Assembly (NCBI RefSeq): GCF_000235405.2
Contig: NC_017095.1
Location: forward strand, 310,001-374,000
Direction of reading: 5' to 3'
DNA: 64,000 nucleotides
Origin: Fervidobacterium pennivorans DSM 9078
Lineage (GTDB): Bacteria > Thermotogota > Thermotogae > Thermotogales > Fervidobacteriaceae
The notes beneath the pieces were generated by a model. That model saw only the letters and a program-made list of their open reading frames with translations, did no database searches and was not told where the DNA came from. Below are positions 13,787 through 24,010 of this stretch, in pieces. Within the stretch, counting starts at the first letter, position 1. Each line of letters starts with the position of its first letter. A program made the position numbers and the translations under genes.

Positions 13787-14065
13787 TCGCTATGCTTGTA
13801 AATATTGATTTTACTTTGCTTTCTATTGATAAACTTAGATTAAGATAGCGTTTATTTTTTCGATACTGTGCGTGCTGGGAAATTCTTTCTGCTTTATAGA
13901 GTTAACGGAACAAAAGCAAAACGTGAAAATAATTAAATGTTGTCGTTTAACAGCTATTAATAGCCTCAAAAGGTCATTAGTTTGGGGTTGATTTTTGCAA
14001 ACGAGTAAGTTAGCATTTTTGTTGGATAATAAGAATTTTAAATCACAAAAATTTAATACTCCCTC

Positions 14066-14229
14066 CCCTTAAAGGTGCACTTACGTGCTTAAAAGGGAAC
14101 TCCGGTGAAAATCCGGGACGGTCGGGCCACCGTGAGTGGGGACGAAACCTGCAAAATGCCACTGGCTTTAATGCTGGGAAGGCGCAGGGAGTAGGGTGAT
14201 CCACGAGTCGGGAGACCTGCCTTTAAGGG
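14066..14229 (+). ncRNA. Cobalamin (B12) riboswitch
   Basis: Adenosylcobalamin-class riboswitch aptamer. Closing stem P1 pairs CCCTTAAAGG (14066-14075) with CCTTTAAGGG (14220-14229). The conserved core elements appear in order: AAAAGGGAAC, CCGGTGAAAATCCGG, GACGGTCGGGCCACCGT, ATGCCACTGG, GCTGGGAAGGC, and the B12 box AGTCGGGAGACCTGCC (14206-14221). It lies about 70 bases upstream of the sucC-like ATG and is followed by an intrinsic terminator, so high cobalamin should switch the operon off. Finding it over succinyl-CoA-synthetase-like genes is unusual. Confidence 0.95.
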
Positions 14230-14237
14230 AATGGGTG

Positions 14238-14272
14238 CCCCAAAAACCATCGATTTTTGGGGGTATTTTTCT
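14238..14272 (+). terminator. Riboswitch expression-platform terminator
   Basis: Stem CCCCAAAAA (14238-14246) with TTTTTGGGG (14254-14262), 7-base loop, then TATTTTTCTTT. It sits between the aptamer and the ribosome binding site (AAAGGGGG, 14283-14290), as expected for transcriptional control by the B12 aptamer. Confidence 0.88.
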
Positions 14273-14299: not shown

Positions 14300-15367
14300 A
14301 TGAAGATTCACGAGTATTTGGCAAAGGATATCCTGAGGGCGGAAAAAGTAAGAGTACCAAGAAGCTATTTGGTAACATCCGAAGAACTAGCAGAAGAAAA
14401 GTCTTTAAGGAAGTGCTTGGAAAGGCTCGGTTTTCCGCAGGTCCTTAAAGCTCAAGTATTAGTTGGTGGGAGGATGAAAGCCGGCGGAATTGTGGTCGCC
14501 GAAAATTTGGAAAAAAGTCTCGAAGGTATTAGGAAGATTTTGGGGATGAAGATAAAAGGAGAGGAACCCTACGGAGTATTAGTTGAAGAATACATTCCGC
14601 ATGACACTGAGAGATACATTTCACTTTCAATCGACAGAAATGTCAGAGACGTTGTGTTTGTGTATTCTGAGGTTGGTGGTGTGGACATAGAAGAATTTGC
14701 ATCGAAATATCCAGACAAAGTGCTGCGTACAAGCAACATACGAGAACTTCCCAAAGACCTTCAGGAATTTGCGAAGCAGTTGTACGATATATTCGTAAGA
14801 TACGATTTAACGTTGCTCGAGATTAATCCTTTTGTTTTTAAAGACGGAGATTTTTACGCGTTAGATGCCGTGTTTCATGTGGATGACAGTGCGCTGTATA
14901 GACAATTGTGGGCATATGAGGATACTGAAGAAACAAATTCTTTCGTGCCGTTTGAAAATGGAGAAATTGGCGTGATTGGCTGTGGTGCAGGGATTGTTAT
15001 GGCAACGATAGATATACTTGTTGAGCATGGTTACAAACCAGCTAATTTTTGTGATTTGGGCGGTGGTGCAACAATGGAAAGTGTTTACGAGGCGTTGAAA
15101 AAAGTCATGTCTTTGTGTAGTAAAGCAGTTTTGAATATCTTTGGGGGCATCACCGATTGTTTGGAAATAGCCAAAGGCGTTGTGAATTTTAAAGAAGAAG
15201 ACCCAGATTTCGAAATTTATATTAGGTTGTCTGGAAACAACGAATTTCTGGCAAAAGAATTATTAAAAAAGCACGGAATTTATGCTGTTGACGATATGAA
15301 AGATTTAATTGAAAGACTTCAAGAAGATGAGAAGGTTCAAAAGAGGGGTGTTAACGATGTTTTTTAA
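14300..15367 (+). CDS. sucC: Succinyl-CoA synthetase-like ligase, beta subunit (ATP-grasp)
   Basis: ADP-forming acyl-CoA ligase beta subunit, which with the alpha subunit interconverts succinate (or a related acid) + CoA + ATP and the acyl-CoA. The N-terminal ATP-grasp domain starts MKIHEYLAKDILR; KAQVLVGGRMKAGG near 50-63 binds nucleotide and LLEINPF near 172-178 supplies the Mg2+ ligands. The CoA-ligase domain has FCDLGGGATMESVYEAL and NIFGGI near 250-290. At 355 residues it is about 30 shorter than typical SucC. Succinate specificity is not certain; malate or other dicarboxylate ligases look alike. First gene behind the cobalamin riboswitch. Confidence 0.85.
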   Translation: MKIHEYLAKDILRAEKVRVPRSYLVTSEELAEEKSLRKCLERLGFPQVLKAQVLVGGRMKAGGIVVAENLEKSLEGIRKILGMKIKGEEPYGVLVEEYIPHDTERYISLSIDRNVRDVVFVYSEVGGVDIEEFASKYPDKVLRTSNIRELPKDLQEFAKQLYDIFVRYDLTLLEINPFVFKDGDFYALDAVFHVDDSALYRQLWAYEDTEETNSFVPFENGEIGVIGCGAGIVMATIDILVEHGYKPANFCDLGGGATMESVYEALKKVMSLCSKAVLNIFGGITDCLEIAKGVVNFKEEDPDFEIYIRLSGNNEFLAKELLKKHGIYAVDDMKDLIERLQEDEKVQKRGVNDVF

Positions 15368-16205
15368 AACAAATACAGTTTGTGTTTACGGCGGAACAGG
15401 AAGATATGGAAGTTATCACCTCAAAAGGATGATTGAATACGGGACGAATGTAGTATGTGTGGTGAGTAAGAACAAACATATACAACGCATGGATGGTGTG
15501 CCAGTCTATCAAAGCCTCAGTGAGAGTTTTGAAAAGCCAGACACTGCTATTTTTTTCGTTCCGCCACAGAATGTTTTGGAAGCGTTTAAAGATGCTGTTG
15601 ACAATGGTGTGGTAAACCATGTAATAATAACTGAACATGTTCCTGTTCACGATACGATAAAGATGTTGAAATTGGCAAAAGAAAAAGGAGCTAGAATAGT
15701 TGGTCCTAATTGCCCAGGTGTTATTAACCCACACGAGCGAGTTAAGGTCGGTATTATGCCAGAAAAGTATTTTAAAGCAGGTGATGTAGCTATCATTTCA
15801 AGAAGCGGTACGTTGATGTATGAAACAGCAAAACATCTCAGCGAGGGTCCAGGCGTTGGCGCAGCACTTGGGTTGGGTGGAGACCCAATTGTTGGGACAA
15901 CTGTTTCAGAGGCTTTTGAAATAGTAAAAAATATAGGTTATGAAAAAGTTCTCTTGATTGGTGAAATTGGTGGTGAAGATGAGGTAAGAGGTGTTGAGCA
16001 CGCAATAAAAATAGGGTTCTCTCCAGAAAACATCGTTGCTTTCTTTGCAGGTAGACATGCTCCAGAAGGGAAACGTATGGGGCATGCGGGAGCAATTATT
16101 GAAGGAGAAAGGGGAAAAGTTTCTTTTAAGGAACGAAGACTAAAGGAATTAGGAGTTAAGGTGGTGAAATTTCCGTGGGAAGTAAGAGACGCTTGGAGAA
16201 ATTGA
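15357..16205 (+). CDS. sucD: Succinyl-CoA synthetase-like ligase, alpha subunit
   Basis: CoA-binding alpha subunit. The CoA-binding Rossmann domain starts VCVYGGTGRYGSYHL; GPNCPGVINP near 118-127 and the active-site loop RMGHAGAI, with the phosphorylated His243, are both present. Length 282 is typical. The start at 15357 is chosen because AGAGGGG lies 8 bases upstream and the family begins at this point; it overlaps the sucC-like gene by 11 bases, indicating co-translation. GPNCPG and GHAG support catalytic competence. Confidence 0.88.
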   Translation: MFFKTNTVCVYGGTGRYGSYHLKRMIEYGTNVVCVVSKNKHIQRMDGVPVYQSLSESFEKPDTAIFFVPPQNVLEAFKDAVDNGVVNHVIITEHVPVHDTIKMLKLAKEKGARIVGPNCPGVINPHERVKVGIMPEKYFKAGDVAIISRSGTLMYETAKHLSEGPGVGAALGLGGDPIVGTTVSEAFEIVKNIGYEKVLLIGEIGGEDEVRGVEHAIKIGFSPENIVAFFAGRHAPEGKRMGHAGAIIEGERGKVSFKERRLKELGVKVVKFPWEVRDAWRN

Positions 16206-17114: not shown

Positions 17115-17145
17115 TTGACAAGATATGGTAGTCTTGTGATATAAT
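17115..17145 (+). promoter_or_regulatory. Promoter of the lysine operon
   Basis: Perfect TTGACA (17115-17120) and perfect TATAAT (17140-17145), though 19 bases apart. Transcription should start near 17152, giving a leader of about 320 bases before asd. Confidence 0.8.
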
Positions 17146-17231
17146 ATGGACAAATAAGCTGCCTAAGAAATAGCAAGAAAAAACGAGTAAAACAGAGATT
17201 TAATGAAATTTAGTCGGGAGGACGTCATAGC

Positions 17232-17351
17232 GTGTTTGATTATTTGAATTTATCAGCTGAAAACATCATGAATATTGAAATCAATATGAAATCTAAAGCT
17301 AAACGCAGCTGCCCGCTTTATGGTGGTCAGCTTGCGTTTGGCTTGGGATAA
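17232..17351 (+). CDS. Putative leader peptide of the lysine operon (39 codons)
   Basis: Short open frame starting at GTG with GGGAGG (17216-17221) 10 bases upstream and ending in TAA at 17349. Codons 20-24 contain three Lys AAA codons in five (K-S-K-A-K, 17289-17303), followed by Arg. The frame then runs through the 5' arm of the antiterminator (17311-17328) and stops in the loop of the inner hairpin. This is the arrangement of a ribosome-controlled attenuator: a ribosome stalled at Lys codons leaves the antiterminator arm free, while one that reaches the stop covers it. The peptide itself resembles nothing I know. The coding claim is inference from RBS, codons and geometry. Confidence 0.6.
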   Translation: MFDYLNLSAENIMNIEINMKSKAKRSCPLYGGQLAFGLG

Positions 17352-17393
17352 AAACCCACGCAAGCAAGTAACAAAAGACTACCATAAGCGGGC
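17311..17393 (+). promoter_or_regulatory. Antiterminator of the lysine-operon leader
   Basis: The arm 17311-17328 pairs with 17377-17393 in a 17-bp helix with one bulged U and one G-U pair. Inside it, GCTTGCGT (17330-17337) pairs with ACGCAAGC (17358-17365) and GGG (17345-17347) with CCC (17355-17357). The 3' arm shares bases 17387-17393 with the terminator stem, so the two structures exclude each other. Confidence 0.75.
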
Positions 17394-17423
17394 TACAGTG
17401 AAAAACTGTAGCCCGCTTTTTTA
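17387..17423 (+). terminator. Attenuator terminator of the lysine operon
   Basis: Perfect 13-bp stem (17387-17399 with 17405-17417), loop GAAAA, followed by a T run. It lies 50 bases upstream of asd, so it must be bypassed for operon expression. Confidence 0.9.
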
Positions 17424-17471
17424 TTAGGCTTATGAATACTTCAATCCATCATAAAAAAGGAGGTATTTTCT

Positions 17472-18488
17472 ATGGGGTTCAAGGTCGGTGTTGTAGGTGC
17501 AACAGGAGCAGTTGGAAGAACGATGGTCGAGGTTCTTGAAAAAAGCGGGGTTCCAGTTTCTGAACTCAGGCTCTTTGCATCGGAAAGGTCAGCCGGTCAA
17601 ACTCTAACGTTCAAAGGTGTGCAAGTGAAGGTCGAGGTTCTCACGGAAGAAGCTATGAGGGAAGGTTTTGACTATTTACTTTTCTCAGTTGGTGCAGATG
17701 TTTCAAGAAGATATGCACCAATTGCAGCAGAAGCGGGAACAACGGTAATTGATAACTCATCTGCATTCAGGATGGTCCCAGAAATTCCGCTTGTCGTTCC
17801 GGAAATAAACGGAAAACTGTTAAAGGGATACCGTGGAATTGTTGCAAATCCGAATTGTTCAACTATTCAAATGGTTTTAGCGCTTTACAGGGTGCATGAC
17901 AGATACCATTTACACGAGATATTTGTTTCAACATACCAGGCAGTTTCCGGGGCAGGTCACAAGGCTATTGTTGAATACGAAAGGCAACTTGCCGGTGATA
18001 CAACATATACGGTTTTCCCAAAACAGATAGCCCACAACGTCATTCCACTCATAGGTGATTTAAAAGATGATATATCTCAAGAGGAGTGGAAGATGATAAA
18101 CGAAACAAGGAAAATATTGAATTCAAGGTCTATAGCCGTATTCCCAACAACTGTAAGGGTTCCTGTTAGGGTGGGACATTCGGAAAGTATTGTAGCTCGA
18201 ACTCTCTTCCCAATAATGTCAAAAGAAGACTTAGTAGAAACTATTGCTTCAGGTGAGGATGTAGTAGTTCATGACTATATCATTACACCAATAGAAGTAG
18301 CTGGTGATGACTATGTCCACGTTAGTAGAATAAGGCTGTTTGATGCGCACACATTTGGATTGTGGGTTGTAGCTGACAATCTGAGAGTTGGAGCTGCAAC
18401 GAATGCCGTTAGGATTTTGAAGCTACACAGTCAATTGAATTCTGACTTGATTGTCGAAAGCGAGGCGGAGGAAGTTGAGGGAAGATGA
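17472..18488 (+). CDS. asd: Aspartate-semialdehyde dehydrogenase
   Basis: Second step of the aspartate pathway: NADPH-dependent reduction of aspartyl phosphate to aspartate semialdehyde. The N-terminal Rossmann motif is VVGATGAVGRTMVEVL; the catalytic Cys129 lies in NPNCSTIQ and the active-site His in VPVRVGHSES near 235-244. Length 338 is typical. AAGGAGG precedes the ATG. First structural gene of asd-dapF-dapA-dapB-dapH-lysC-aminotransferase, the same order as in Thermotoga, where asd follows a lysine riboswitch; here an attenuator-like leader stands in its place. Confidence 0.95.
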   Translation: MGFKVGVVGATGAVGRTMVEVLEKSGVPVSELRLFASERSAGQTLTFKGVQVKVEVLTEEAMREGFDYLLFSVGADVSRRYAPIAAEAGTTVIDNSSAFRMVPEIPLVVPEINGKLLKGYRGIVANPNCSTIQMVLALYRVHDRYHLHEIFVSTYQAVSGAGHKAIVEYERQLAGDTTYTVFPKQIAHNVIPLIGDLKDDISQEEWKMINETRKILNSRSIAVFPTTVRVPVRVGHSESIVARTLFPIMSKEDLVETIASGEDVVVHDYIITPIEVAGDDYVHVSRIRLFDAHTFGLWVVADNLRVGAATNAVRILKLHSQLNSDLIVESEAEEVEGR

Positions 18489-19242
18489 GTTAAGAAAGCT
18501 CGGGGTTGATTTAATTTGCAAATACTCAGCAACAGGTAATACTTTCGTCGTTGTCGATGCGACAAAGACAACTCTAAACGATGTAGAAAAGGAAAAGATT
18601 GTGCTTGAGGTTGTCGAAGAGAGGGATGGAGTTATCTTTGTTGAACGACATAGTAATCGGTTCTTTATGGATTATTTTAACAGAGATGGTAAACGAGCAA
18701 CCTTTTGTGGAAATGGAGCAAGAACGTTTTTGAAATTTCTCTCAGATTATTTCAACGTTTTTGGAAAAGTTAGCTTGGAAACAAACGCAGGTGTGCTTAA
18801 TGGATACATTGGAGAGAAAATTTTTGTCCAAATGCCAGACCCTGTTGTTAATTATTTCGTGCCTCAAGAAGAACTTTCAGGTTTTGAAGGAATACTGATT
18901 ACAGTAGGCGTACCCCACCTTGTTATGAACGTTGGAAAAGCAATCTGGGGGTTTGATATGGAAATCGCAAGGTTGCTTAGACATAAGTTCGATGCCAATG
19001 TTAATTTGTTTAATGTCTTAGATTCAAGTACGTTTGAGATTAGGACGTTTGAACGTGGTGTTGAAAGAGAAACGTTATCCTGTGGCTCAGGAACGACGGC
19101 TACGGCATATTTTGTTAAGTATTATATTCTTCAAGATAACAGGATACCAGATAGGTTAACGGCCCAAACAAAAGGCGGAATTCTCAATGTGCTTTTTGAG
19201 ACTGATGGAATATATTTGGAAGGGGGAGTCGAACATGAGTAA
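18475..19242 (+). CDS. dapF: Diaminopimelate epimerase
   Basis: Converts LL- to meso-diaminopimelate. Both catalytic cysteines are visible: FCGNGAR in the N-terminal half and SCGSGTTATA in the C-terminal half; KYSATGNTFVVVDA marks the start of the fold. The TTG at 18475 is chosen because GAGG lies 9 bases upstream; another TTG at 18451 has no ribosome binding site. Either way the gene begins inside the end of asd in another frame, so translation is probably coupled. About 255 residues, close to the family norm. Confidence 0.9.
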   Translation: MREDELRKLGVDLICKYSATGNTFVVVDATKTTLNDVEKEKIVLEVVEERDGVIFVERHSNRFFMDYFNRDGKRATFCGNGARTFLKFLSDYFNVFGKVSLETNAGVLNGYIGEKIFVQMPDPVVNYFVPQEELSGFEGILITVGVPHLVMNVGKAIWGFDMEIARLLRHKFDANVNLFNVLDSSTFEIRTFERGVERETLSCGSGTTATAYFVKYYILQDNRIPDRLTAQTKGGILNVLFETDGIYLEGGVEHE

Positions 19243-20143
19243 TTCATCAGGTCAGATGCGTATGTTTCATGGAGTTGGAACTGCGATAGTAACACCGTTC
19301 ATGAACGGTGAGGTTGATTACGAAAGTTACAAAAGGATTGTGAGATGGCAGATTGAAAGTGGTGTAAGCGCTATTATCGTTGCCGGAACAACAGGTGAAG
19401 GTGCTACTTTGACGGTTGAAGAAAGAGAGCGTTTGACAGCATTAACTAAAGAGATTTGTGAAGGTAAAGCTCAAGTTATTGTTGGAACCGGGACCAACGA
19501 TACGAAAAAGACTTTAGAACTCTCTTTGAGTGCGCAAAAGTTTGGTGCTGATGGTGTATTAATAGTTACTCCTTACTACAACAAACCTACACAGGAAGGT
19601 CTTTACGCACACTACAAGTATCTATCAGAAAGACTTGATGTCCCAATTATCATTTACAACGTTCCTTCTCGAACCGGAGTGAATATATCGCCTGAGACCG
19701 TGGCACGCTTAGCAGTGGAGTGTCGAAATATAAAAGCGATAAAGGAGGCTAATCCTGATGTTGCTCAGTCTGATGAAATTTACAGACTGACAAAGGACCT
19801 CGATTTTTACATCTACTCAGGAAACGATGATAGAGCATTTCATATGATATGCGCAGGTGCCAAGGGAGTAATATCTGTAGCTTCGAACGTTGTTCCCACT
19901 CGGATTGTAGAGATGGTCAATGCAATCTTTTCAGGTGACATCTCAAAAGCCCTCAAAATTCACACGCAGCTTATCCCATTGTTCAAAGCCCTCTTTATAG
20001 AAACCAACCCACTTCCTGTTAAAGCAGCTATGCACTTGTTGGGATTAATGGAAAACGAATTCAGACTACCGCTTGTTCCACCAAAAGAATCAACTGTGGA
20101 AAGACTAAGGGTGATTCTTAAGGACCTGGGGGCGATAGAATGA
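19235..20143 (+). CDS. dapA: 4-hydroxy-tetrahydrodipicolinate synthase
   Basis: Condenses pyruvate with aspartate semialdehyde, the first committed step to lysine. TIM-barrel protein with GTTGEGATLT near residues 50-59, the Tyr of VTPYYNKPTQEG near 115, and the Schiff-base Lys in IKAIKEANPD near 172. Length 302 is slightly above the usual 294. The ATG at 19235 follows GGGGGAG and overlaps the dapF end by eight bases. Confidence 0.95.
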   Translation: MSNSSGQMRMFHGVGTAIVTPFMNGEVDYESYKRIVRWQIESGVSAIIVAGTTGEGATLTVEERERLTALTKEICEGKAQVIVGTGTNDTKKTLELSLSAQKFGADGVLIVTPYYNKPTQEGLYAHYKYLSERLDVPIIIYNVPSRTGVNISPETVARLAVECRNIKAIKEANPDVAQSDEIYRLTKDLDFYIYSGNDDRAFHMICAGAKGVISVASNVVPTRIVEMVNAIFSGDISKALKIHTQLIPLFKALFIETNPLPVKAAMHLLGLMENEFRLPLVPPKESTVERLRVILKDLGAIE

Positions 20144-20820
20144 ATAGACTAAACACAGTGAAGATAAGATACGGTTTAGTGGGTGCAAACGGGAAAATGG
20201 GTGCGGAGATTCAAAGTTATTTCTCTTCGTTAGGTGATTTGTGCGTTTTGAGAAAAGATATGGGGGTTTTTGAGGAAATCGAGCGACCGCAAGTGATAAT
20301 TGATTTTTCATCCCCTGATGCTGTTTTTGAAACAATTGAACTGTGCAGGAAATTCAACTGCGGACTTGTGATAGGGACAACTGCTCTGTCCGAGGAACAT
20401 TTTGCAAAGCTAAAAGAATTGGCTGAACATGTCCCCGTGGTTCAGAGTTATAACTTTTCAACAGGAATCGCAATTTTAAGAAGAATTATAAAGGAATACG
20501 CGTCTTACTTCGAAGATTGGGATGCAGCTATGGTTGAAATTCACCATAATATGAAAAAGGACGCTCCTTCTGGTACTGCCAAGATGCTTAAACAAGCATT
20601 GGGACGAGATATACCTATAAGTTCCATAAGGGTTGGAGGTGTTTTTGGTGAACATACGTTGATTTTTTCTAACTCAGGTGAAACTGTTGAAATCACACAT
20701 AGAGCCTTATCACGAAGGGCGTTTGCAATAGGGGTAAGGAACGCAGCGCTGTTTGTTCTGGAAAAGGAAAAGGGATTTTTTAGCTATGATGACGTTTTGG
20801 AATCTGCGCAAGCCAGATAA
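20140..20820 (+). CDS. dapB: 4-hydroxy-tetrahydrodipicolinate reductase
   Basis: NAD(P)H-dependent reductase giving tetrahydrodipicolinate. The nucleotide-binding start GLVGANGKMGAEI and the active-site motif EIHHNMKKDAPSGTA are clear. At 226 residues it is shorter than Proteobacterial DapB (about 270) but matches the short Thermotoga form. The ATG overlaps the dapA stop by four bases (ATGA). Confidence 0.93.
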   Translation: MNRLNTVKIRYGLVGANGKMGAEIQSYFSSLGDLCVLRKDMGVFEEIERPQVIIDFSSPDAVFETIELCRKFNCGLVIGTTALSEEHFAKLKELAEHVPVVQSYNFSTGIAILRRIIKEYASYFEDWDAAMVEIHHNMKKDAPSGTAKMLKQALGRDIPISSIRVGGVFGEHTLIFSNSGETVEITHRALSRRAFAIGVRNAALFVLEKEKGFFSYDDVLESAQAR

Positions 20821-20841
20821 TTGGTGTGTGGAGGGGTTAGG

Positions 20842-21588
20842 ATGGGTATTAAAAAGAGTGTAAGAGAATTAACAAGTGAAGAAATTATCGAGATTATTGC
20901 GAAAAGCAAGAAAAAGGACTTAGTAAGGGTGTACATTTCTGGGGTTCTAGATGGCATTGATTTTGGCAAGTACAAATCTGAAGAAGTTGAATTTGATTTC
21001 GTTGTTGGAAAAGATTTTGGAGTGCTTTTTGGAGATTTTGAAGTCATCTCACAGGTGCTTAGGAATGAAGGAATTGAAAAATACAAAGTGGAGTACGTTG
21101 CTAGGAATTCGGCGATTCCGCTGGCAGATATATCCCAATTCAACGCGAGGATAGAACCAGGTGCAATTATCCGCGAGCTCGTTGAAATTGGTGAAAAAGC
21201 GGTTGTAATGATGGGAGCTGTAATCAATATCGGCGCTGTAATTGGTGAAGGGACAATGGTTGATATGAACGCTGTAATTGGTGCACGAGCTCGAATTGGA
21301 AAGTATTGTCATATAGGTGCTGGTGCGGTTGTGGCGGGCGTTGTTGAACCACCAAGTGCAACACCTGTTATCATTGAGGACTATGTTCTTGTTGGTGCAA
21401 ACGCTGTGATTTTAGAAGGTGTAAGAGTAGGTCATCATGCTGTTGTTGCCGCCGGTGCGGTTGTCGTTGATGATGTGGAACCTTACACTGTTGTTGCAGG
21501 CATTCCAGCTAAGGCAATCAAAAAGGTCGATGAAAAGACAGCTAATAAGACACAAATTTTGGAAAGTCTCAGAGAAATTAACAGATAA
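20842..21588 (+). CDS. dapH: Tetrahydrodipicolinate N-acetyltransferase
   Basis: Acetyl-CoA-dependent acyltransferase that commits the route to the acetyl branch of lysine synthesis. The C-terminal half is a left-handed beta helix of hexapeptide repeats (from about residue 85), with the DapH signature [14 protein letters not shown] and [14 protein letters not shown]. The N-terminal domain starts [14 protein letters not shown] as in DapH, not like the succinyl-using DapD. Length 248. Start at 20842 follows GGAGGGG by five bases; an upstream ATG at 20821 lacks such a site. Confidence 0.93.
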
Positions 21589-21618: not shown

Positions 21619-22842
21619 TTGACAAGAAACGTTCTTCAGAGTAGAGTAATTGTTCAAAAGTATGGAGGCTCATCTGTGGCTGACCCTGACAGAATCAGAA
21701 ACGTTGCACGTAGAATAGCAAAGAAAGTCCAAGAAGGTTACAAAGTGGTGACCGTTGTCTCTGCAATGGGTAAGACAACTGACAATTTGATTTCACTTGC
21801 CAAGAATGTATCAAGCAAACCCGACGAAAGAGAGCTTGATATGCTTCTTACCACAGGCGAACAGGTTTCGTGTGCTCTTGTTGCAATGGCTTTGAAAGAT
21901 ATGGGCATTAATGCAATTTCTTTGAACGCTTTTCAGGTCAAAATTCTAACCACAAAGTCTTATAACAACGCGAGAATAATGGATATCAGTGTCAGGAAAC
22001 TGAGAGAATATCTCGACAGTTACGATGTGCTTGTCGTAACTGGTTTCCAAGGAATTACCGAAGACGAGCATCTTACAACACTTGGTAGAGGTGGTTCGGA
22101 CACTTCAGCAGTGGCTTTGGCTGCCAAATTGAAGTGCGATTGTGAGATTTACAGTGATGTTGCAGGTGTTTATACGTGCGACCCAAAACTTTATCCTGAG
22201 ACAAAGAAACTCAAGTACGTTACGTACGATGATATGCTCGAAATGGCAGCAACTGGTGCAAAGGTACTACATTCACGTTCAGTTGAGATAGCCAAAAAAT
22301 ACAACGTGCGGGTCTACTGTGGTTCATCATTTAGCGATGAGGAGGGAACTTGGGTGGTTGACAGAATACCTGAATGGCTTGAAGAACCACTTGTTACAGG
22401 GGTTAGTTTGGACAAAAATCAGGTAAAGGTTTCTATAATGAACTTGCCAAATGATGCAAAAGTGGTAACAGATATCTTCAAGAGAGTTGCAGAGAAAGGG
22501 ATAAACGTCGATATGATATCTCTCGTAAAGAACGGTACATCAACACACGTGTCGTTCACAGTTGTTCCTGAAAGGCTTGACAAAATAGAAGAATTGCTCA
22601 ACGAAACACTTTCTGATTACGGTGCTAAATACCATTTCTATGGGAAATTTTCAAAAATCACTGTTGTTGGAACAGGCATGAGGTCTCATTACGGTGTTGC
22701 TTCAAAACTTTTAGAAGTGCTTTCCGAACATGGTGTTGAACCGGAGCTAATAACCACATCAGAAATCAAAATCTCCGTTTTGGTTCCAGAAAACGTGGCA
22801 GAGGAACTGGTGAAAAGTATTTGCAAGGCTTTTGATTTGTAA
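21619..22842 (+). CDS. lysC: Aspartate kinase with C-terminal ACT domains
   Basis: First step of the aspartate pathway. The kinase domain opens with VIVQKYGGSSVAD and contains TTGEQVSCALVAMAL and GRGGSDTSAVALAAKL; two ACT domains fill about 260-407 and would bind the feedback amino acid, probably lysine given the operon. TTG start with GAGAGGGA just upstream. Length 407 is typical for the monofunctional class. It closes the recognisable pathway genes of the operon. Confidence 0.95.
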   Translation: MTRNVLQSRVIVQKYGGSSVADPDRIRNVARRIAKKVQEGYKVVTVVSAMGKTTDNLISLAKNVSSKPDERELDMLLTTGEQVSCALVAMALKDMGINAISLNAFQVKILTTKSYNNARIMDISVRKLREYLDSYDVLVVTGFQGITEDEHLTTLGRGGSDTSAVALAAKLKCDCEIYSDVAGVYTCDPKLYPETKKLKYVTYDDMLEMAATGAKVLHSRSVEIAKKYNVRVYCGSSFSDEEGTWVVDRIPEWLEEPLVTGVSLDKNQVKVSIMNLPNDAKVVTDIFKRVAEKGINVDMISLVKNGTSTHVSFTVVPERLDKIEELLNETLSDYGAKYHFYGKFSKITVVGTGMRSHYGVASKLLEVLSEHGVEPELITTSEIKISVLVPENVAEELVKSICKAFDL

Positions 22843-22870: not shown

Positions 22871-24010
22871 ATGCACAGTGCGATGGGAGAGACATATGTA
22901 GCTGGCACGTATAACAGGTATCCCATCAAGATATCACATGCTAAAGGAATTTATGTATGGGATAAAGATGGAAAACCTTATTTAGATACGTTCATGGGTA
23001 TTGGCGTGCTTCTTTTTGGACACAACCATGAGAAGATAATAGATGCCATGAAAAGAAAGATGGAAAAGTACGTTCATCTTTCGAACTTTTTCCTTGATGA
23101 CGATGCCTTGTTTGTTGCGCAAAGACTCGTCCAGGAGACGGGGAAATACGGAAGAGTTTTTTTCACAAACTCAGGTGCAGAAAGTACAGAATGTGCCCTA
23201 AAAGTGGTCAGGAAGGTCAAGAAGACGGGTAAGATACTTTCGTTCGTTAGAAACTTTCATGGAAGGACTTTAAGTGCATTGAGCGTAACTGGATTTGAAA
23301 ACATAAGAAGTCAGTTCATTAATGATGAAAACGTCGTTTTTCTTCCATATGATTATGAAACTGTAAAGAGATTTTTGGAAGACGAAGAACACATAGCGGC
23401 GGTCTTTTTGGAAGTAGTACATGGTAGTGGTGGTTTAGACGTTATTCCACAAGAGATTGTTGAGTTGATATCAGAGTACAAAAAAGAACATGGTTATCTT
23501 ATCGTAGCTGATGAAGTCCAAAGTGGACTTGGTAGAACAGGAAAGTTTTATGCGTATCAGCATTTTTCAATTCAACCAGACATTGTCACTGTGGCAAAGG
23601 GTATAGGTGGCGGACTACCACTTGGAGCATGTATCATGCTTGAGGAATATGCTGATGTTTTTAAAACAGGTGAACACGGTTCTACTTTTGCTCCCAATCC
23701 AGTAGCACTTGCTGCAGGAAGAGCGATTTTGGAGATGATTGATGAACATTTGTTAAACCATGTTGTAGAAATGGGTAAGTATTTTGAAGAACGTTTTTCA
23801 AAACTTGGTGATGTACTCGGTATGGGATTGATGAGAGGACTAAAGCCGAAGTTAGCTGTTGATTCAAAGTGGATAGAAAGATTTATAAACCAAGGACTCT
23901 TGGTTAATATCTTGGGAAACGGCGTTGTCCGGTTCCTGCTACCACTAAATATAACCAGAGAGCAAATCGACGAGATCTACAAGAGATTTTGTGAAGTTAT
24001 TGAACACTAA
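22871..24010 (+). CDS. Class III aminotransferase, ArgD-like; candidate N-acetyldiaminopimelate aminotransferase
   Basis: PLP enzyme of the acetylornithine/ornithine aminotransferase family. FFTNSGAESTECALKVVRK near 98-116 binds PLP phosphate, VADEVQSGLGRTG near 214-226 holds the Asp that contacts the PLP ring, and the Schiff-base Lys is in TVAKGIGGGLPLGA near 244. Length 379 is typical. GGGGGAGG precedes the ATG. Since it ends the lysine operon and no other DAP aminotransferase is present, it is a good candidate for the N-acetyl-2-amino-6-oxopimelate transamination; ordinary ArgD activity is the alternative. Its stop overlaps the stop of the convergent ecfT gene by four bases. Confidence 0.85.
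   Translation: MHSAMGETYVAGTYNRYPIKISHAKGIYVWDKDGKPYLDTFMGIGVLLFGHNHEKIIDAMKRKMEKYVHLSNFFLDDDALFVAQRLVQETGKYGRVFFTNSGAESTECALKVVRKVKKTGKILSFVRNFHGRTLSALSVTGFENIRSQFINDENVVFLPYDYETVKRFLEDEEHIAAVFLEVVHGSGGLDVIPQEIVELISEYKKEHGYLIVADEVQSGLGRTGKFYAYQHFSIQPDIVTVAKGIGGGLPLGACIMLEEYADVFKTGEHGSTFAPNPVALAAGRAILEMIDEHLLNHVVEMGKYFEERFSKLGDVLGMGLMRGLKPKLAVDSKWIERFINQGLLVNILGNGVVRFLLPLNITREQIDEIYKRFCEVIEH

Follow-up and report, generated by a model that had tools for sequence, protein, structure and literature searches.

The trp, his, thr and leu attenuators of Proteobacteria combine leader codons for the end product with a protector hairpin, an antiterminator and a terminator. In 2010, leader-peptide systems had been shown only in Proteobacteria and Actinobacteria, until a case in Firmicutes was added, namely the His leader peptides of hisS and hisZ in Bacilli, where relatives use T-boxes (PMC2965389). 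According to the same paper, it was already known that a leader peptide can take the place of a T-box or riboswitch. One suggestion is that attenuators for amino acids may have arisen in gamma-proteobacteria, with very few transfers (PMC3766115). That source also reports a lysine riboswitch in most Thermotogales, and a further survey finds one in all Thermotogae species of its set (PMC5584792). A comparative attenuation survey, Lopatovskaya et al. 2010, is cited in PMC4833913 and may include Thermotogae. We found no paper on the leaders described below in the open literature; the 2010 survey may have predicted some of them.

The leader upstream of the lysine operon in Fervidobacterium pennivorans shares all the above parts of the proteobacterial attenuators, as well as their logic, and its hairpin P1 is the counterpart of the 1:2 hairpin of the trp attenuator. 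Unlike them, it appears to read lysine, has no Rfam leader match and occurs in Thermotogota, a phylum in which a single similar architecture is found with Lys codons, Thr codons and apparently His/Lys codons. The lysine riboswitch (RF00168) is located 5′ of the asd ortholog in further genera of the same family (g3-g5), but binds lysine directly, needs no leader peptide, and is absent from Fervidobacterium (g1), its sister genus (g2) and the family f2. The Bacilli His leaders are similar in being attenuators outside Proteobacteria and Actinobacteria, but differ in amino acid, phylum and genes. T-boxes also sense tRNA charging through transcription termination, but they bind the uncharged tRNA directly; there is no Rfam T-box match in the window.

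Leader and predicted switch

The window, i.e., the whole stretch of 64,000 nucleotides that was analysed, corresponds to positions 310001-374000 of contig 1 in a genome of 2.17 Mb. All positions below are window positions unless a contig is named.

17115-17145, +: promoter, with TTGACA (17115-17120), a 19-base spacer, and TG followed by TATAAT (17140-17145)
17216-17221, +: leader ribosome-binding site GGGAGG, 10 bases 5′ of the GTG
17232-17351, +: leader frame of 39 codons, from GTG at 17232 to TAA (17349-17351), with the peptide MFDYLNLSAENIMNIEINMKSKAKRSCPLYGGQLAFGLG
17289-17303, +: regulatory codons AAA TCT AAA GCT AAA (Lys-Ser-Lys-Ala-Lys), with AAA at 17289, 17295 and 17301
17301-17339, +: protector hairpin P1 of 39 nt, pairing 17301-17311 with 17328-17339 (U bulge), with an apical stem of 17313-17317 and 17322-17326
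17311-17328, +: 5′ arm of the antiterminator, from folding, mask folding and arm-swap permutations
17377-17393, +: 3′ arm of the antiterminator, of which 17387-17393 also belongs to the terminator
17387-17423, +: intrinsic terminator, pairing 17387-17399 perfectly with 17405-17417, followed by a T run
17472-18488, +: asd, aspartate-semialdehyde dehydrogenase (NCBIfam NF011456)
18451-19242, +: dapF, diaminopimelate epimerase (TIGR00652)
19187-20143, +: dapA, 4-hydroxy-tetrahydrodipicolinate synthase (TIGR00674)
20140-20820, +: dapB, 4-hydroxy-tetrahydrodipicolinate reductase (TIGR00036)
20821-21588, +: dapD, tetrahydropyridine-dicarboxylate N-acetyltransferase (TIGR03532)
21619-22842, +: lysC, aspartate kinase (NF005154)
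22871-24010, +: acetylornithine-type aminotransferase at the operon end (best match TIGR00707, under its cut-off), likely an acetyl-DAP aminotransferase

The promoter, the GGGAGG, the GTG frame and its three AAA codons in five, all part of the original prediction, can be read directly from the sequence. Our promoter scan missed this promoter because it takes only spacers of 16-18 bases. Similar -35 and -10 elements, with spacers of 18-19 bases, are readable in five relatives (G001, G004, G005, G008 and G010). In a separate observation, a cobalamin riboswitch (RF00174, 116.7 bits) lies at 14056-14238, upstream of a gene pair at 14300-16205 that we call succinyl-CoA-synthetase-like from a reading of the sequence only.

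The leader region has a stable RNA fold (17180-17430, z = -6.4), with none of 200 shuffles equally stable. The antiterminator folds as had been predicted, with 17 pairs and one bulge, as does the perfect terminator, whose stem is counted as 14 pairs in the terminator/promoter scan. Given that the two structures have bases 17387-17393 in common, they are mutually exclusive. P1, with a stability of about -21 kcal/mol, overlaps the regulatory codons in that the third Lys codon opens its 5′ arm, and the 5′ arm of the antiterminator lies in its apical part. The leader frame thus has a ribosome site and end-product codons at the predicted stall position, and the intrinsic terminator lies 5′ of the first structural gene. 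In the Rfam search, neither RF00168 nor any other family matched the site at its gathering score, and this includes Thr_leader, Trp_leader, His_leader and the other Rfam leaders. Permissive thresholds yielded only chance matches under the gathering scores, such as a Thr_leader match on the opposite strand with 17.6 bits, far under the cut-off of 55.

We interpret this element as a lysine-specific, ribosome-mediated transcription attenuator of the operon asd-dapF-dapA-dapB-dapD-lysC-aminotransferase, and put the probability of this interpretation at about 0.93. A ribosome would translate the leader of 39 codons and, given a shortage of Lys-tRNA, would stall at the Lys codons in 17295-17303 and cover the 5′ arm of P1 (17301-17311). 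The stall would free 17311-17331 to pair with 17377-17393, and the resulting antiterminator would take 17387-17393 from the terminator, such that RNA polymerase continues into asd. With ample Lys-tRNA, the ribosome would move past the codons and leave, P1 would re-form and lock the antiterminator arm, and the terminator would stop transcription. The frame with its Lys codons, the three covarying helices and the match between codons and downstream gene come from the sequence and its comparison, and from these we infer that the ribosome stalls, in which order the RNA folds and how it responds to lysine.

Mask folding is consistent with this scheme for a ribosome at the Lys codons. The antiterminator is available for ribosome positions as far as the regulatory codons, and diminishes or disappears once the ribosome stands at or just after the last one. 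This places the boundary of occlusion at 17289-17303, where a stalled ribosome had been predicted to leave the antiterminator arm open. The structure 3′ of the ribosome weakens there from about -20 to -35 kcal/mol to about -5 to -20 kcal/mol. The position of the regulatory codons is probably fixed because, up to roughly this point and no further, a stalled ribosome can open P1 and still leave the antiterminator core uncovered.

The original prediction had also supposed that a ribosome finishing at 17349 would cover the antiterminator arm. This part did not hold, since about 17332 is the furthest point 5′ that a ribosome with the stop codon in its A site would cover, and mask folding leaves the antiterminator free. 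Because 17311-17328 is left uncovered, termination in lysine-rich cells would need P1, a hairpin that the prediction lacked. Its comparison to trp/his attenuation is right as to the classical logic, but the route to termination would go through P1. In equilibrium folding of the full transcript, the terminator wins at every ribosome position, whereas the antiterminator wins when there is no ribosome and the transcript ends before the 3′ arm of the terminator. Equilibrium folding by itself thus fails to reproduce the switch, and kinetic folding is needed, in which P1 comes first and persists. Such behavior of P1 is plausible.

Conservation of the reading frame and the helices

The element is present in all nine g1/g2 genomes with readable asd leaders. 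Upstream of the core, the leader frame of these genomes has no stop in 202 codons, as compared to 31 and 20 stops in the other frames, and none of 5,000 shuffles matched this. A start codon and, 5′ of it, a purine-rich candidate ribosome site are present in each of the nine leaders; the site is clear in most cases, with weaker ones in G001 and G004. The five codons before the core always include two or three Lys codons, and the last two Lys of Lys-Ser-Lys-Ala-Lys (17289-17303) are kept in 9/9. The N-terminal part of the peptide drifts freely, as expected of a leader. P1 has an identical length of 39 nt in every case. In the g2 core, the peptide has Gly instead of Ser and Pro instead of Leu, which are the two sides of a single A-U to G-C change in P1.

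The leader core and the terminator stem are almost invariant in g1/g2, which is beyond the strict needs of attenuation. The terminator stem GCGGGCTACAG/CTGTAGCCCGC (e.g., 17388-17416 in the window) is nearly wholly invariant in the nine genomes, past the part that it has in common with the antiterminator.

We built a covariance model, R1, from the nine g1/g2 leaders. It finds related leaders in the families f2 and f5, and further ones were retrieved with a second model, R2. In an alignment of 19 leaders that was fitted to the R1 structure, and is hence tilted towards it, 95.7% of the cells in P1 and the terminator are paired, versus 85.6% in shuffled alignments, and 12 pairs have changes at both bases. 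These values are not attained in any of 500 shuffles, and are lost when the partner is shifted. One pair is A-U in the Lys leaders versus C-G in a leader upstream of the homoserine dehydrogenase gene (hom), a difference by which a Thr codon takes the place of a Lys codon in an intact stem. The arms of the antiterminator pair best with their own partners, with a mean of -27.8 kcal/mol versus -18.4 kcal/mol when swapped (0/20,000 permutations), a preference that is not always seen within close g1 leaders; the leaders share descent and are thus not 24 independent observations.

An alignment of asd leaders from relatives had been proposed as a check of the prediction. It bears the prediction out in that the frame, the start codon and the Lys codons are conserved in 9/9, and the helices covary over the 19 leaders. 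Neither of the two outcomes named as contrary, i.e., covarying helices with no conserved frame or Lys codons, or a hit to an Rfam family, was observed.

Related leaders with other codons

Leaders with Lys codons occur 5′ of asd in f5, dapA in three f2 genomes of three genera, dapD in nine f2 genomes, dapF and lysC. For these biosynthetic leaders, every downstream gene belongs to the lysine pathway. A leader with four Thr codons (TTTT) lies 5′ of hom in G076. We did not find hom in Fervidobacterium, so there is no Thr leader to compare in that genus. The 23 lysine-pathway leaders in this frame all carry Lys at the codon four before the Pro codon CCG (or before its counterpart CTG, Leu, in G021), against a baseline of 7% Lys residues in seven genes of the window. 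The corresponding codon is Lys in the lysC leader and Thr in the hom leader, and the run of TGG codons in a Trp leader ends at the matching place.

This Trp leader, in which WWW or WWWW is followed by x-x-G-x-C-P-P with a terminator, is found 5′ of a TrpB-like gene in 10 of the 13 genomes of the family that were read, including genera that keep the riboswitch. The copy in F. pennivorans (WWW; L162, contig 1 of G000, 1304671-1304808, - strand) also has a terminator and precedes a TrpB-like gene; further Trp leaders are L184, L186, L188, L190, L191, L192, L194, L196, L197 and L198. The layout is the same as that of the Lys leader, but the sequence is different, and a common ancestor of the two is less certain.

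Additional leaders are associated with transport. Leaders with Lys/His codons (IKHHAKYSPV, IKKHVKRCCPG, HHHKLWRPV) lie 5′ of the gene for an amino-acid ABC transporter binding protein (L148-L151, L153-L155 and L165), and the substrate of this transporter may be readable from their codons. In two f8 genomes, the leader NRKHDKYLPG precedes an APC-type amino-acid permease gene (L156 and L157). The Lys/His specificity of both groups is less certain. A leader-like element (MREEIIEYCPV..., L164) occurs 5′ of the gene for an apparent peptide-binding ABC transporter protein, and its regulatory codons are ambiguous. We discarded the R2 matches L158, L159, L161, L163, L166 and L167, which are terminators only or chance matches.

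The exact motif GCCCGST...CGGGCTA...TAGCCCGSTTT matches five stretches in 84,980 species genomes, all of them in Thermotogota, although records of close relatives are possibly absent from this set. Our somewhat favored model is that one ancestral attenuator of Thermotogota was copied and re-coded. According to this model, the leaders have the same hairpin-terminator frame, and the codon four before Pro (CCG) sets the specificity, which would be Lys for asd, dapA, dapD, dapF and lysC, Thr for hom, and probably Lys/His for the amino-acid transporters. At the lysine operon, this attenuator would exchange with the lysine riboswitch.

We considered whether P1, with its bulged U and its C-U mismatch, could be an aptamer for lysine or a protein, with the open frame being incidental. 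The near-invariance of P1 in g1/g2 suits an aptamer, given its identical length and the fact that synonymous positions of the core scarcely vary in the nine genomes. However, an incidental frame would not be expected to lack stops where the other frames have many, the pairing but not the sequence of P1 is kept in f2 and f5, the codons change to Thr 5′ of hom, and no Rfam family reaches its gathering score. We therefore regard an aptamer as quite improbable. Arrest of the ribosome by the nascent peptide itself, i.e., by KAKRSCPLxGGQLAFG in response to lysine, seems more improbable still. The C-terminal peptide is indeed very alike in all nine g1/g2 leaders, but its changes track the RNA helix, as in the paired Ser-to-Gly and Leu-to-Pro substitutions in g2. 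Moreover, the residues that follow the Lys codons are not shared outside g1/g2 or by the Thr and Trp leaders, and we saw no peptide conservation beyond what the RNA needs.

The leader could also sense general translation or another charged tRNA, through the Arg, Cys or Pro codons that follow the Lys codons. Arg does follow Lys in all g1/g2 leaders, but other leaders have Cys, His or Ser in its place, and a ribosome stalled at Arg would cover much of the antiterminator core in g1/g2 according to mask folding. Since the biosynthetic leaders with Lys codons also all precede lysine-pathway genes, we consider this the most far-fetched of the alternatives. Attenuation governed by the Lys codons is thus the interpretation that we adopt.

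Lysine riboswitch and proposed attenuator in Thermotogota

RF00168 occurs in 57 of 103 Thermotogota genomes, including 14/14 of f3, which we infer to be the Thermotoga family. By coordinates, it lies immediately 5′ of asd in all nine genomes of g3-g5. It was found in 0/11 genomes of g1/g2, in agreement with the predicted lack of a lysine riboswitch at this site, and in 0/11 genomes of f2. Two asd genes in f11 have no leader in the upstream region that was read.

In a tree of Asd proteins, g1 and g2 form one clade (100/100), and the attenuator-bearing f5 genome G021 groups with riboswitch-bearing genes of the Thermotoga family (94/95). Because the deep forks are weak and G021 is placed in this way, the tree does not settle which regulator is older. 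The riboswitch and the attenuator are interleaved among lineages. The prediction that one regulator was replaced by another within the phylum is half borne out: the riboswitch is absent here and present in neighboring genera, but the tree leaves the order of gain and loss undecided.

The mechanism is classical ribosome-mediated attenuation; the novelty is in the lysine specificity, the phylum and the re-coded design. Given that two genera have a lysine-codon attenuator instead of the riboswitch, and that similar leaders occur in several families, attenuation would be broader than the view in PMC3766115. Since neighboring genera carry one or the other regulator 5′ of the same gene, sensing of free lysine and sensing of Lys-tRNA become directly comparable. 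The Lys and Thr leaders seem to be naturally re-coded forms of a single RNA switch, whereby the exchange of one base pair yields another codon and leaves the stem intact.
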